A stretch of 64,000 bases of DNA, taken from assembly GCA_036557285.1 (NCBI GenBank), contig DATBHW010000020.1:62001-126000 (forward strand), read 5' to 3'. A program made the position numbers and the translations under genes. Under the pieces are notes generated by a model. That model saw only the letters and a program-made list of their open reading frames with translations, searched no databases and had not been told where the DNA came from. The stretch is from Ktedonobacterales bacterium. GTDB lineage: Bacteria; Chloroflexota; Ktedonobacteria; Ktedonobacterales; DATBGS01. Each line of letters opens with the position of its first letter. Within the stretch, counting starts at the first letter, position 1. Below, piece after piece: positions 26,053-63,358 of this stretch.

Positions 26053-26294
26053 GGCAAATAGGTTCCACCAACTATTGGGGTTGCCACTTGTAGCGCCGCC
26101 TTCCAGGCGGCCAGCCCGTAGCGCCGCCGGCGCGGCGGCCAGCGTTGGCCTGCTGGTCCGCTGGCCTGGAGGGGGAAGGCTCGCTCTGGCGCAGCGTTGA
26201 GCCGCCTGGAAGGCGGCGCTACAAGTGGGCGTTCGTTGCCAGGGATGGCGGCGGTACGAGCGGCAACCCCGATAATTAGTGGGAGGGGCAAATA
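26053..26294. mobile_element. MITE-like element with terminal and internal inverted repeats
   Basis: Imperfect 23-base inverted repeats (26063-26085 and 26262-26284, 19 of 23 matching) enclose perfect 26-base inverted arms at 26086-26111 and 26201-26226 with the GCCGCCTTCCAGGCGGC core. The 10-mer GGGGCAAATA flanks the whole unit as a direct repeat at 26051-26060 and 26285-26294, which could be a target duplication. There is no transposase frame. It fills the gap between the GDCC gene and trpB and could weaken transcription into trpB. Confidence 0.65.
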
Positions 26295-29962: not shown

Positions 29963-30022
29963 CCTGTAACGCCGCCTTCCAGGTGGATCGCCGATTGGTC
30001 GCCTGGAAGGCGGCGCTGTAAT
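29963..30022. repeat. palindromic intergenic repeat, copy 2
   Basis: The sequence TGTAACGCCGCCTTCCAGG is followed about 20 bases later by its near-exact inverse CCTGGAAGGCGGCGCTGTA. It shares the GCCGCCTTCCAGG core with the copies near 26.1, 51.2 and 63.2 kb and lies between the convergent fabH and deacetylase genes. Confidence 0.75.
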
Positions 30023-57717: not shown

Positions 57718-58680
57718 GTGATTTGTCCGAATTGTCGAAATCAGATGGCTGATAATGCGCGATTTTGTGGAATCTGTGGCAATCCTAACCCGTCGCCTGG
57801 AGGAGCGCAGCCGTCGGGAGGCTACGCAGCGCCGCCGCCGGGGGGAGGCTATGGAGCGCCTCCAGGGCCGGTAGGCGCAGGCCAGTATCAAGCGGCGTAT
57901 GGCGGCGGTCTGGCCGTCAGCGAGCCGCAGCCCGAATTGCATAACCCCAAAGACCCGATTGTCATTGGGGATATGCGCATCAAAATCGAGGGCGAAGTGG
58001 TGCCAGCGGTGAGCGTCGAACTGGGTCAGCAGCAGACGGTCTATTTCGAGCATCATATCTTGCTGTGGAAGCATCCGGGCGTCAACATTGGCTTCATGAG
58101 CCTGAAGGGCGCGGCCAAACGCTTCTTTGCCGGATTGCAAATCTTTATCAGCACTGCGCAGGGTCCGGGCAACATCGCTTTCTCGCGCGAGGCGCCGGGG
58201 CAGGTGGTCGCTCTGCGTTTGCAGCCAGGGCAGATTATTGACGTGCGCGAACACCAATTTTTGTGCGCTTCCAGCAATGTCGGCTATGGCTTTACCTTTG
58301 TGCGCGGCGCGGCGAATGTCCTTTTCAGCCGGACGGGGCTGTTCGTGGATCAATTTACCGGCCAGCAGGGCGAGGGCGTCGTGGTGGTGCATGCCTATGG
58401 CAATCACTTTGAGAAGCAGCTTGCGCCAGGCGAGACGCTGGACGTGGAGCCTGGCGCGTGGCTGTGGAAGGATGCCTCGGTGCAGATGACCACGACTTCG
58501 ATTGCCAGTTCGACACGCGGCGGCCTCTTTGGGGCGCTGGGCAATCTGGTGGCAGGCGCTTCGATTACCTTGAACCGCTTTACCGGGCCGGGGCGCATCG
58601 GTATTCAATCAATGACCTATCATCCGCCAACCGCCGAGGGCGCGACGCAAGTGGGCGGCCAGGGCAATTTCAACTTCTAG
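57718..58680 (+). CDS. zinc-ribbon AIM24-family protein
   Basis: The GTG at 57718 behind AGGGAGG gives 320 residues. The N-terminus is a zinc ribbon (CPNC...FCGICGN), followed by a Gly/Pro-rich linker (about 27-70). The rest (about 85-310) is the AIM24/TRAP-like beta domain, with VYFEHHILLWKHPGVNIG, PGQIIDVREHQFLCASSNVGYGFTF, NVLFSRTGLFVDQFTG and ETLDVEPGAWLWKDASVQM. AIM24 proteins are widespread in bacteria, and their biochemical role is not settled. A strong terminator follows. The ribbon suggests binding to a partner. Confidence 0.88.
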   Translation: MICPNCRNQMADNARFCGICGNPNPSPGGAQPSGGYAAPPPGGGYGAPPGPVGAGQYQAAYGGGLAVSEPQPELHNPKDPIVIGDMRIKIEGEVVPAVSVELGQQQTVYFEHHILLWKHPGVNIGFMSLKGAAKRFFAGLQIFISTAQGPGNIAFSREAPGQVVALRLQPGQIIDVREHQFLCASSNVGYGFTFVRGAANVLFSRTGLFVDQFTGQQGEGVVVVHAYGNHFEKQLAPGETLDVEPGAWLWKDASVQMTTTSIASSTRGGLFGALGNLVAGASITLNRFTGPGRIGIQSMTYHPPTAEGATQVGGQGNFNF

Positions 58681-58770: not shown

Positions 58771-60531
58771 CTAATGGCGAGGGCCGCTTGCCTCATGCTC
58801 GGCTTGCCCCAATGGCGTCTGCCAGGGTTCCGGCTTCTCCGGGGCGCGGCTTGGTGGCGACAGCGGCCCGGTGAAACGGCGGGGCAGCGCGTCGGCTGTT
58901 CGCAGCGCGCCGCTGGCTGGGCGCATGGGCGCAGGAGCCACCGGAGACCCACTATCAGGGGTTGGGGGAGGGACATTGATGGGGCGGAGCTGCGCGCCAG
59001 GGGCCGCCATATCAACGAGCGACGCGCCTGGCTGTTCGGGGCGTGCCGGGCGCGTTCCCCTGGTGATCTGCTCCATGTTTTCAGCCACGCGCCGCAATTC
59101 GTTCTCGATGGTCTCCATTTGGGAGCCGATATGCCCCAGCCGGGCGCGAAGTAACTCTAATCCGACGCCCTGCTGGCGGACGCGCAGTTCCATTTCTCTC
59201 AGGAAAGGCCGTTCAGTGGAGCGGTTCTCGTTACGGCTCCCTTCCCCTTCGAGCATTGTGTGCAGATGAACTGCGCTCTGCTCAGCGCGCGCTTGCAGTT
59301 CGTGGAGCGCGCTATCGGTATTGCTCAGCGTCTGGTGTACCATTGAGAGGTCGGAACTAATGCCCATCACCGCAGTGAATCCCCCGGCAGTATATTGAAG
59401 GGATTGCTGCAATAAGATGAGTTGCCGACCTGTGCGTGCCAGGGCCAGCGTCAGCCCATCCAATGAGGTTCCGCTGGGGCCGTTCAACGATTGCAGCGCG
59501 GCAGGATCGCCATTGCTCAAGCGGCCAAGCGCCAGTGTCAGTTCACTGATGCGTTCTTCCATGCGGGCGCGCACCGCCGCAGTACGCGCTAGCCGCTCCA
59601 TCTGTTCCAACAGGGTGTTGAGGAGATGGGCAGCCAGGGCCAGCGAGCCGTTGGGCACCGGGGCGCGTATCTCGGTATCACCCGCCATAAAGCGTACATA
59701 GGTATTGCTCAGGCTCTCCATTTCCTCCTGTATCTGCTCTTGTTGTTCGGTCACGTCCCTGCGTGTCAGGAGTAATTCATCCTTCTGGCGGTTCGTTGTG
59801 GCAATGAAGCGATCAAGATTGAGGCTAAAGAGCCGGGCGACATAGGCGATCAGCCCCAGCGCCAGCACCGTTGACACAATGGTAAACGTAATCTGTGCCT
59901 CAAGTGGCAGCGTAATGGCAGGCATGATCTGATCTTGATATTGTCCCAGGCTAATCGCCAGGATCGTCGCGCCAGCGATTCCGGCCAGAGCGATGGCATG
60001 GCGGCTGCCCAGCAGCAGGGCCGCGCTCACGACCACGTAGGCGTAGAAGAGGACAATCGCCCCGCTTACGCTGAACAGGAGCAGCCAGAGGCCCACGATC
60101 ACAAAGTCGGCGTATGGCAACAGGTAAAACGCCAGCGGCGATTGGCTGACGCGCTGGCGGTTGGCGGCCAGCAGGGTAATCAAACCACAGACGCCGAGCA
60201 TTCCTCCGCTGGCGGCCAGGCCAAAGAAAGCAGGTTCATGAAACACGGCTTCCAGAATCATGCCGATTGGGGCCAGCGCCACTCCCAGCGAGAGATGGCC
60301 GATTGACATAGAACGCAGGATAGAGGTAATATGCGCCTCCTGAAGCCCGACTGGCTGCCCCGCTTCTTCGGGGGCGGCGCCGGTGGAGATGAATGCTGGT
60401 GTGTGTGAGTTCTGGAATGGAGAACTTGCTGATATAGCTGGCGTATAGTCAGGTTTCTGTATGGTTGATTGTCCAGCAGTACGCTCGGTTGCTGTATAAG
60501 GGGAGATAATGCGCTCTTCTTGCGGACGCAT
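58771..60531 (-). CDS. multi-pass membrane protein with long cytoplasmic coiled coil
   Basis: A longer frame runs upstream, but the part beyond 60531 is shadow sequence opposite the sigma factor. The ATG at 60531 behind GAGAGG gives 586 residues. About six membrane segments span residues 75-250. A coiled coil (QKDELLLTRRDVTEQQEQIQ) leads into a HAMP-like helical section and repeated heptads, interrupted by LDGLTLALARTGRQL, and the Pro-rich C-terminus is low-complexity. No kinase, cyclase or MCP signature was found. It may be a membrane sensor or scaffold. It is divergent from the ECF sigma gene. Confidence 0.75.
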   Translation of the reverse strand: MRPQEERIISPYTATERTAGQSTIQKPDYTPAISASSPFQNSHTPAFISTGAAPEEAGQPVGLQEAHITSILRSMSIGHLSLGVALAPIGMILEAVFHEPAFFGLAASGGMLGVCGLITLLAANRQRVSQSPLAFYLLPYADFVIVGLWLLLFSVSGAIVLFYAYVVVSAALLLGSRHAIALAGIAGATILAISLGQYQDQIMPAITLPLEAQITFTIVSTVLALGLIAYVARLFSLNLDRFIATTNRQKDELLLTRRDVTEQQEQIQEEMESLSNTYVRFMAGDTEIRAPVPNGSLALAAHLLNTLLEQMERLARTAAVRARMEERISELTLALGRLSNGDPAALQSLNGPSGTSLDGLTLALARTGRQLILLQQSLQYTAGGFTAVMGISSDLSMVHQTLSNTDSALHELQARAEQSAVHLHTMLEGEGSRNENRSTERPFLREMELRVRQQGVGLELLRARLGHIGSQMETIENELRRVAENMEQITRGTRPARPEQPGASLVDMAAPGAQLRPINVPPPTPDSGSPVAPAPMRPASGALRTADALPRRFTGPLSPPSRAPEKPEPWQTPLGQAEHEASGPRH

Positions 60532-60861
60532 GTTTGTTCGCCTCTCTTTCTCCCAGCAACACTTCCCTTTTGCTGTTATGCCTGGAGGGGAGATGTGTCT
60601 GTCAAAGCCGCTTGCTCTGAGCTGTGGAGTAGCAATTCTTGTGCCGCGAACATGTCCCACGCGCCCACAATCCGCGCGGCCTTCTCTTTGCTCCCCGTTC
60701 ATCTGCCCCCAGGCCGTTTGGGCGCCAGAAAACACTTTACTGCTCCCGCTTCGTCTTGTTTTATGGATGACATCCACCCGGCGCTGGGAAGCATTCAGAA
60801 AAGGAGCAAGGATGGAGAGGCGGTGCAGCGCGTGCAAATCCAACGGTCGAGTGTGCAGACG
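60532..60861. other. divergent intergenic region between membrane protein and ECF sigma gene
   Basis: This 330-base gap probably carries the promoters for both directions. The plus-strand frame that covers it is open but not conserved-looking and lacks ribosome sites. No repeat, RNA gene or confident promoter was seen. Confidence 0.4.
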
Positions 60862-61422
60862 ATGAGCAATCCGAGCGATTGCGTTGATTTTGCGGCCCTG
60901 GCGCCGCTGCACATAGCGACGATGCTGCGGGTCGCGGCGGCGCTCGTGGGAGTGGCCGATGCCGAAGACGCCGCACAGGAAGCACTGATGCGCGCCTGGC
61001 AAGGACGGTCCAGTCTGCGCGATGCAGCGGCCTTTCGTCCCTGGCTCTTGCGAATTACGGTCAATGTCTGTCGGGACTGGCAGCGCGGGCGCTTTGGTAC
61101 CAGCCGCCGCCTGCTGGAGCCGCTCGATACTTCTGAAACTGTCGGCCTGGCCGCCGCTCTTGGCAGCGACCCCGGCGCAAGTGATCACACGGCGGCGCTC
61201 GATTTGCGCGCGGCCATTACCCGCCTGGACCCCGATTACCGGGTCGTGGTGGCCCTGCGCTACTACGTGGGCATGGACGCTACCGAGGCGGGGGCGGCGC
61301 TGGGCGTTCCTGCTGCCACTATTCGCACCCGTTTGCGCCGGGCGCTGGCCTTGCTGCGCGAGCATCTTAGCGCGTCAGGAGACCTACCCTCCTTCCAAGA
61401 TAGGAAGGGAGCATCTTCATGA
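60862..61422 (+). CDS. ECF-type RNA polymerase sigma factor
   Basis: The frame is open from 60469, but the ECF region starts only around the ATG at 60862, giving 186 residues. Region 2 has ADAEDAAQEALMRAWQGRSS and FRPWLLRITVNVCRDWQRGR. Region 4 has LDPDYRVVVALRYYVGMDATEAGAALGVPAATIRTRLRRAL, with the helix-turn-helix. It would direct RNA polymerase to a specific promoter set. Its stop overlaps the next start (ATGA), so it is cotranscribed with the Asp-box protein, the likely anti-sigma or sensor. The exact start is uncertain because no strong ribosome site was found. Confidence 0.9.
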   Translation: MSNPSDCVDFAALAPLHIATMLRVAAALVGVADAEDAAQEALMRAWQGRSSLRDAAAFRPWLLRITVNVCRDWQRGRFGTSRRLLEPLDTSETVGLAAALGSDPGASDHTAALDLRAAITRLDPDYRVVVALRYYVGMDATEAGAALGVPAATIRTRLRRALALLREHLSASGDLPSFQDRKGASS

Positions 61423-63092
61423 CTGACGAACAGGAGCGGCCTGACAAGATGGAGCCGCTGGGGCCAGCCTATGAGGCGCTGCAACGGCGTCTGCTGGACG
61501 ACGGCGCGCGCTGGCGCGCGGGGCTGCCATCAACCGAACGTCTTGAACAACGGCTGCATGCGTTGAAGAACCAGGAGCGCGCCGCCCATTTTCGCGCCGC
61601 TGGCGTGAAGCGGAGCGGCGGATTACGGGTGATACATCGGATTAAGGGAGGATATAACGTGTTTCATGGACGTGTAAAAGCGGCGCTGGGGGGAATCGCC
61701 CTTGCTGCGGTGGTTGGGCTGTTTGCCGTGTTATTCTACGGCTTTGCCGGCCATAGGGCCGGAACGGCTGCTAACCCTGGCGGCGCTCGCACTGCCAGCC
61801 CTACCTGGATAGTAACGAGCTTTCCAACATCCCCTCAATATAACAGCTACGCGCCGATGGTTGCGCCCAGCAACCCCAGCGTGGTCTATAAACTTGCGCC
61901 AGCGGACGGTGCAGCGGATCAAACGGTGCTGGCGCGCAGCACCGATGGCGGCGCTACCTGGCGCACGTTCGCGCTGCCATCGGTAAACGGGGGCAATGCT
62001 GTGCCTGTGGTGGTCTTCGTCAGCCCGCTGAACCCGCAGGATGTCTTTCTGACGGTGCGCGTCGAGCTTCCCTTCACGACGCCTGGGTTCCAGCCATGCC
62101 CGCAGTCTGTAACAGTCGGCGGGCTGAGCAGCTACGCGGCTTTGTCTGGCGGCCCTTCGCTCTGCGCTGTGGAGTTTGTGAGCAAGGACGGCGGGGAGCA
62201 TTGGAGCCAGGCGCATCTGCCAGCGTCGGCTGCTCCTGCCGCGCTGGGGGATAGCTCTGGTTATATTTTCTTAGACTCTGTTCTGTTTAGCAACGGCGCG
62301 ACGGTCTTCCAGGTGCAAGGGAACCGCCTCTATTCAGCGACCAATGTTGAGCCGGGCGCTTCTCCGAACGCTCCTGAGGCTCAATCTACCGGGACCATCC
62401 GTATTGTTGTCAGCACCGATGGCGGCCTTAACTGGAGTTACGCAGATAAGGCGCTGGCGTCAAGGGGGCAGAGCATTTGCGATTATACTGCGGCCCCCAC
62501 TGGCTCAACCCTGTTCGCCGTTACTTCTGCTGGCTGCAACAGTGAAATCGCGTCGCCCCCGTTCCTCTGGCGCAGCGATGACGCTGGCGCGCATTGGACA
62601 GAGGTGGGAAAGCTTCCTGGTGATGTGGAGATGGGGATGATCGCCGTCAGTCGTGGCAATGGACAAATGCCCCTGCTCTATGTCAACACGGCCCAGGAGA
62701 CCTGCACCGTCAGCCCGTACCTCTCCAGGCCAAAAGCAGGTGGGTGTAGTATTGATACCTCGCCCGCCAATTTGCGGGTCAGCGCCGATGGCGGCAAGAC
62801 CTGGAGGGCTGCGCCCACAAAGGGCTTCCCGACGACGCAGCCAGGCGACAGGCTCCAGAATCCCGGCGCGCCGCTGGGGGCGCTGGGCGATGGGTCTGTC
62901 CTCTTCCTTGCTCGCTCTGCGCAGGGTTTCGACAGCTTTTATACCTGGAAATCTGGTGATGCTTCCTGGCATCAGGTGGGGCCGGGCTTCAACAACGTCA
63001 GCAGCGCCTTTGTGGTCCCTGGCACGCGGAATACTGTTTGTGTGGTGACGGGGTATCAATCTGACTACACGGTTCACACGTTTACCATCTAG
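61419..63092 (+). CDS. single-pass membrane protein with Asp-box (BNR-like) propeller, likely sensor or anti-sigma
   Basis: The 557-residue protein starts inside the sigma stop. Residues 1-85 are cytoplasmic, charged and helical, resembling the short anti-sigma tails next to ECF genes, but lack the zinc HxxxCxxC motif. One membrane helix lies at about 88-110 (LGGIALAAVVGLFAVLFYGF). The outer region (about 125-557) has five Asp-box repeats of S-x-D-G-G-x-x-W type: STDGGATW, SKDGGEHW, STDGGLNW, SDDAGAHW and SADGGKTW. Asp-boxes mark beta-propellers of the sialidase/Vps10 type. It may hold the sigma factor and release it on an external signal; this is an inference from the operon. Confidence 0.85.
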   Translation: MTDEQERPDKMEPLGPAYEALQRRLLDDGARWRAGLPSTERLEQRLHALKNQERAAHFRAAGVKRSGGLRVIHRIKGGYNVFHGRVKAALGGIALAAVVGLFAVLFYGFAGHRAGTAANPGGARTASPTWIVTSFPTSPQYNSYAPMVAPSNPSVVYKLAPADGAADQTVLARSTDGGATWRTFALPSVNGGNAVPVVVFVSPLNPQDVFLTVRVELPFTTPGFQPCPQSVTVGGLSSYAALSGGPSLCAVEFVSKDGGEHWSQAHLPASAAPAALGDSSGYIFLDSVLFSNGATVFQVQGNRLYSATNVEPGASPNAPEAQSTGTIRIVVSTDGGLNWSYADKALASRGQSICDYTAAPTGSTLFAVTSAGCNSEIASPPFLWRSDDAGAHWTEVGKLPGDVEMGMIAVSRGNGQMPLLYVNTAQETCTVSPYLSRPKAGGCSIDTSPANLRVSADGGKTWRAAPTKGFPTTQPGDRLQNPGAPLGALGDGSVLFLARSAQGFDSFYTWKSGDASWHQVGPGFNNVSSAFVVPGTRNTVCVVTGYQSDYTVHTFTI

Positions 63093-63120: not shown

Positions 63121-63358
63121 TAATGCCATATCCGCTTACAGAGCAGCGTTTTACTGGCTGCGCCGCCTTCCAGGCGGCTAAGAACGCCTCGCAAAACGCT
63201 GACGGCGCAGCAGTGTTCACTTGTAGCGCCGCCTTCCAGGCGGCGCTACAAGGAGGCGCCTGGCCCACTGAGGTTGTATGAGGCGCTCTAAGCGTCAGGC
63301 CGCCTGGAAGGCGGCGCTGTGTGTGGCGTCCGCGAGCATTCAACGGGATATGGTATCA
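63121..63358. mobile_element. MITE-like element with three palindromic cores
   Basis: The imperfect ends TAATGCCATATCC (63121-63133) and GGATATGGTATCA (63346-63358) are inverted, 11 of 13 matching. Inside are 19-base perfect inverted arms (63160-63178, 63299-63317) and a central perfect palindrome with 13-base arms (63221-63233, 63239-63251). No transposase frame was found. Its right end reads TATGGTATCATAAT, which resembles a promoter -10 pointing at the lipoprotein gene. Confidence 0.6.

Follow-up and report, generated by a model that had tools for sequence, protein, structure and literature searches.

The closest described systems are CnrY/CnrH of Cupriavidus metallidurans, in which the class II ECF anti-sigma factor CnrY is membrane-bound, and RsgI/SigI of Clostridium thermocellum, in which SigI is not an ECF sigma factor. 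CnrY consists of two helices wrapped around a sigma in its closed form and relies on a separate sensor, CnrX (as described in part of PMC4598750). RsgI proteins, as presented in a portion of PMC12203970, combine one inner head and one membrane helix with outer sensors that diverge across paralogues, and they work by a scheme like the one proposed below with other parts. In class I anti-sigma factors, the attached domains are typically well conserved within a group, which Casas-Pastor et al. took to mean shared input cues (from a section of PMC7406223). Titles and the opening lines of abstracts in the literature yielded no description of an anti-sigma factor with a propeller or Asp boxes.

Here we describe a sigma/membrane protein pair in a window of 64,000 nucleotides (i.e., the whole stretch of DNA that was analysed) from a Ktedonobacterales bacterium. 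We put at roughly three in four the probability that this pair represents a new family of two-helix membrane anti-sigma proteins with swappable sensors, in which the cytoplasmic head would bind the sigma. As in CnrY/CnrH, the cytoplasmic part is short and predicted to be two-helical and the sigma, in a model of a relative, is closed; the presumed sensor, however, is the protein's own ectodomain rather than a separate protein. No sequence relation between CnrY and the head was found, and CnrY was absent among PDB matches of the head up to E 10, though the domain is short and such an absence says little. The RsgI head is another domain than the head in the window.

Layout of the pair and its neighbourhood

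The first gene (60862..61422, plus strand) encodes an ECF sigma factor of 186 aa, in which Sigma70 regions 2 and 4, and these regions only, both score above the Pfam cut-offs (Sigma70_r2, 44.7 bits; Sigma70_r4_2, 44.3 bits) and which scores 289 bits against the profile of the sigma clade treated below. The open frame extends back to a TTG at 60469, with 60862 the likeliest start codon. The second gene (61419..63092, plus strand), overlapping the first by ATGA at 61419–61422, encodes a single-pass membrane protein of 557 aa, the putative anti-sigma factor. The earlier note had proposed this 4-base overlap and, for the protein, a short cytoplasmic helical part (given as residues 1–85), one membrane helix, and five Asp boxes, with no zinc anti-sigma motif; structure model, motif count, and Pfam agree with that layout, the extent of the inner part alone being corrected to about residues 1–84.

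In the AlphaFold2 model of the window protein (mean pLDDT 69), two helices are followed by a membrane helix and then a propeller. Head helix 1 (residues 16–35; 61464..61523, plus strand), which carries a conserved L-x2-D-G-x2-W, and head helix 2 (residues 39–61; 61533..61601, plus strand) precede the membrane helix (residues 85–110; 61671..61748, plus strand). Basic residues are more numerous on the N side of this helix than on its C side, as they are in 14 of 15 proteins, with one tie, so the N-terminus would lie inside. Hx3Cx2C has no match in the window protein and residues 1–110 hold no cysteine, which sets the head apart from zinc anti-sigma domains (ZAS, zf-HC2). Nor does the protein belong with the RsgI family, as it has no RsgI Pfam match and its partner is an ECF sigma.

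The outer part (residues 120–557; 61776..63089, plus strand) is an Asp-box (BNR) beta-propeller: BNR is the Pfam match of the protein, fold comparison by VIA-align gives a single propeller fold over residues of about 120–557, and SxDxGxxW occurs five times, at residues 174 (STDGGATW, 61938..61961), 255 (SKDGGEHW, 62181..62204), 332 (STDGGLNW, 62412..62435), 386 (SDDAGAHW, 62574..62597), and 455 (SADGGKTW, 62781..62804; all plus strand), vs. a mean of 0.028 and a maximum of 1 in 2000 ectodomain shuffles. Fold and Asp boxes are shared with GH74 xyloglucanases, sortilin, sialidases, and DAIP; unlike these, the window propeller is joined to a sigma-linked head. The RIP motif, a mark of sialidases, is absent from the protein, which is thus not classed as a sialidase.

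The suggestion that two neighbouring genes belong to the same system did not survive comparison, and both were rejected as members because they are not conserved. The divergent gene (58771–60531, minus strand) encodes a membrane and coiled-coil protein of no known family with weak relatives in 17 of 47 genomes, its own included, and by coordinates none of these relatives lies beside a clade sigma in the 47 genomes; upstream flanks reach only 10–930 bases before the sigma domain, and this gene was judged by the coordinates of its genome-wide relatives. The downstream gene (63434 to beyond the window end; L047:5435–6703) encodes a lipoprotein of 422 aa with repeats of the IWAVG kind. In 24 other loci the downstream flank spans ≥1 kb, and no relative of this lipoprotein lies in it; 13 of these flanks hold <1.5 kb, so that a more distant lipoprotein would escape.

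Other features were observed in this neighbourhood. A REP-like palindrome, GCCGCCTTCCAGGCGGC, has six copies in the window, five exact and one with a mismatch (63162–63315, 26095–26217, and 29998–30014), vs. 0 in 100 shuffles, and three of the copies lie just 3' of the propeller gene. An AIM24-domain protein with an N-terminal zinc ribbon is encoded at 57718–58680 on the plus strand. The propeller type of the downstream lipoprotein is also the ectodomain type of some clade anti-sigma proteins (L090 and L093).

A head module that tracks one sigma clade

A profile (A2) built from 15 clade sigmas gave 36 matches at 193–294 bits in 15 of the 47 genomes of the order, with nothing between 193 bits and the next best match at 130 bits. 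The class consists of the same 47 genomes, and a scan of the phylum (seven candidates scored per genome) returned the same 15 genomes among 400; one genome, G018, holds seven clade sigmas, and an ECF group number may already exist for the clade. An initial search with the propeller protein had found relatives in 14 of 101 genomes, its own genome included, while a scan of named genomes gave six loci, all weak propeller matches, with no sigma pair among the frames listed.

Sought in other genomes, the pair recurs: the partner adjoining the clade sigma starts with the same inner module in all 34 readable loci (33 loci plus G017:C581; the remaining two, G006:C104 and G018:C22, sit at contig ends). 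This head is a 40-residue motif built on L-x2-D-G-x2-W, with W conserved in 31, L in 31, G in 27, and D in 25 of 33 sequences, and none of the 33 clade partners has Hx3Cx2C in its first 140 residues. When the 47 genomes were scanned with a head profile (at most 143 candidates scored per genome), at least 33 matches reached E ≤ 1e-3, 30 of 33 adjoining a clade sigma by coordinates, two lying at contig edges, and one containing an internal stop codon; among the candidates scored in the sister family f2 there was no match. The head tracks the sigma clade and occurs almost nowhere else in the order. The heads have no Pfam family in common (3 of 15 members gave single chance-level matches), and the PDB holds no related sequence (best E 0.21).

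How such a head might engage its sigma was modelled with AlphaFold on a relative of the window pair, L009, chosen among loci with the sigma and partner genes in one frame, the stop between them being read as serine (alignment of 58 rows: 8 fused, 25 sigma alone, 25 head alone). In the resulting model (pLDDT 85.1, pTM 0.79), the sigma is closed, and the two main head helices, 215–234 and 239–258, which would wrap it, have pLDDT of about 90–95. That sigma fits sigmas bound by wrap-around inhibitors: CnrH of CnrH/CnrY (4cxf_A) over 143 residues at 3.5 Å, SigW of SigW/RsiW (5wuq_A) over 146 residues at 4.6 Å, and RpoE of RpoE/NepR (5uxx_C) over 162 residues at 4.9 Å, and its full-length fits to polymerase-bound ECF sigmas are 20.6–27.2 Å. 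The model thus supports a closed sigma form, though SigG1 alone also fits (5.9 Å), so a closed sigma is no proof of an inhibitor, and the form may be AlphaFold's default.

Some FecR-like regulators are needed for the activity of their sigma. A window protein that likewise tethered the sigma to the membrane or activated it would be expected in an identical gene arrangement; however, the closed sigma of the model is the form known with inhibitors, and we hold this role to be the least probable of those considered. A derivation from class I, by which the head would be a worn-down domain of the RskA/RseA kind inserted without zinc between sigma domains 2 and 4, is better placed yet still unlikely. 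The zinc motif is missing from about 44% of class I domains, and zinc-headed proteins with related ectodomains occur in the same family of genomes, but the head, at about 45–60 residues with two long predicted helices, compares with 101 ± 33 residues in class I (both class I values from part of PMC7406223). Furthermore, no Pfam anti-sigma family matches the window protein or the clade heads, and the closed sigma of the model fits the sandwiched sigma of SigK/RskA (4nqw), whole chain, at 10.8 Å. A two-helix head of its own kind, probably holding the sigma inactive, remains our preferred reading.

Exchange of the outer parts

The earlier note had read the protein as a new type of anti-sigma sensor that uses a sialidase-like propeller. 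The putative anti-sigma role and a non-zinc head of undescribed sequence type are retained, but the propeller is rejected as the defining part, since the same head bears other ectodomains and related Asp-box ectodomains are also found on zinc heads; that is, the sigma goes with the head, not with the propeller.

An Asp-box propeller (three or more Asp boxes) forms the outer part of 15 of the 33 partners. A Pfam scan of outer parts that took in 10 of the 33 assigned the propeller families PQQ_2 (L028) and Vgb_lyase (L089) as well as Germane (L085) and SecDF_P1_head (L095), and found no family in L018, L082, L084, L088, L093, or L096. The ectodomains of L090 and L093 resemble the propeller of the window's downstream lipoprotein (E 7.5e-18 and 1e-8, respectively). 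The ectodomain could not be judged in L079 and L080 (short open frames) or in L083, L091, and L097 (truncated at contig ends), and the sequence of L027 breaks off inside its ectodomain. The sigma tree joins two sigmas of genome G003 as sisters at 98/95, L012 with an Asp-box ectodomain and L090 with another propeller, and at 97/89 it pairs L085 (Germane) with L088 (no family). Such differences in ectodomain between sister sigmas indicate that outer parts were replaced while sigma and head stayed. Distance co-evolution is not discriminating here: distance matrices of sigma and head correlate at r = 0.52 over 33 pairs, and within the 15 Asp-box pairs sigma–head reaches 0.56 and sigma–ectodomain 0.65, all in or near the 0.5–0.6 reached by non-interacting controls (Casas-Pastor et al., as given in part of PMC7406223).

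Related ectodomains likewise occur on other heads. Class I zinc anti-sigma factors (zf-HC2) of the same order also combine a related Asp-box ectodomain, a membrane helix, and an adjoining ECF gene, but they differ in their Hx3Cx2C head and in having sigmas of other clades. Seven propeller relatives (L013, L014, L021, L025, L026, L030, and L032) start with Hx3Cx2C as judged by eye, Pfam zf-HC2 being weak and below cut-off in L025 and L026, while most of the propeller relatives have a short non-zinc start and are preceded by a sigma close to that of the window. Where present in sequence, the sigmas of zinc-headed loci fall outside the clade (e.g., 38–53 bits against the clade profile for L025, L026, and L030). 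Head labels placed on the ectodomain tree need four changes, yet support is low (3 of 19 inner branches starred) and the starred branches force only one, so the case for mixed heads among related ectodomains is suggestive but not proven. As a separate observation, the genome of the window also encodes a second sigma-linked Asp-box protein (L037:3236–5390, contig C21), which matches the Sortilin and YCF48 families; its N-terminus (VDEQIDQL...) is again non-zinc but differs from the clade head, which brings the head types seen on Asp-box proteins to three.

A common promoter, a proposed mechanism, and its implications

A dyad count that started from no preset motif picked out AACAC-N17-TCT (spacing ± one), present in 21 of 32 clade upstream regions, vs. 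at most 11 for the best dyad in any of 20 shuffled sets. The shared promoter, AAACACTT-N14/15-GTCTT, was scored as AAACACTT-N13-17-GTCTT, a consensus derived from the same set of upstream regions that it scores; 24 of 33 clade regions match it at ≥11 of 13 bases, vs. 9 of 660 shuffles and 1 of 19 other ECF genes (a control of 21 loci, 19 with a located sigma). In the window, the predicted autoregulatory ECF promoter (AAACACTT-15 bases-GTCTT; 60730..60757, plus strand) matches it at 13 of 13 bases, and the sole other site at ≥11 bases is far off, at 2777 on the minus strand. Strict sites number 8 in the own genome, vs. 6 for a reversed-pattern control, and 24 in four relatives, vs. 8; by coordinates, 9 of these 32 precede clade sigmas, leaving 23 vs. 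14 control sites, and no regulon beyond the sigma/partner pair was found in these five genomes. Among the paralogous sigmas of G018, the promoter is nearly the same, with slight variation in the second box (GTCTT, ATCCT, and ATCTT).

As this promoter precedes both genes, and as sigma–head binding is a prediction, one could take the propeller protein for a surface protein that is co-transcribed with and controlled by the sigma and is no anti-sigma factor. Against this, all 34 loci retain the cytoplasmic head while the supposed outer cargo changes completely, and we think such an arrangement very improbable.

We therefore return to the anti-sigma reading, under which a mechanism can be sketched. 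That the head holds the sigma at the membrane is well supported by comparison across loci. Its two cytoplasmic helices would wrap the sigma and hold domains 2 and 4 closed without zinc, and the closed sigma would be unable to bind RNA polymerase, as with CnrY on CnrH. We infer the sensing and release steps: the outer propeller would bind a ligand or a surface partner, and either regulated cleavage or a change of conformation would pass the signal on through the membrane helix. Once free, the sigma would act at AAACACTT-N15-GTCTT to transcribe the operon that encodes it and perhaps the genes of a small regulon. In relatives, head, membrane anchor, sigma, and promoter are kept, and the sensor outside appears to have been exchanged.

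With one head, one sigma clade, one promoter type, and many outer parts, the clade breaks the rule of conserved attached domains. As a natural set of chimaeras, it would let one ask how outer domains of whatever fold can act through a single helix to free a sigma, and its parts could serve to build engineered sensors. We lean, with slightly better than even confidence, towards a broader view: that the two-helix head is an undescribed class of its own and, in this order, a general adaptor that has received at least six types of outer sensor by grafting, and that, with similar sigmas and an almost unchanged promoter among paralogues, one promoter type in G018 may answer to many signals from outside.
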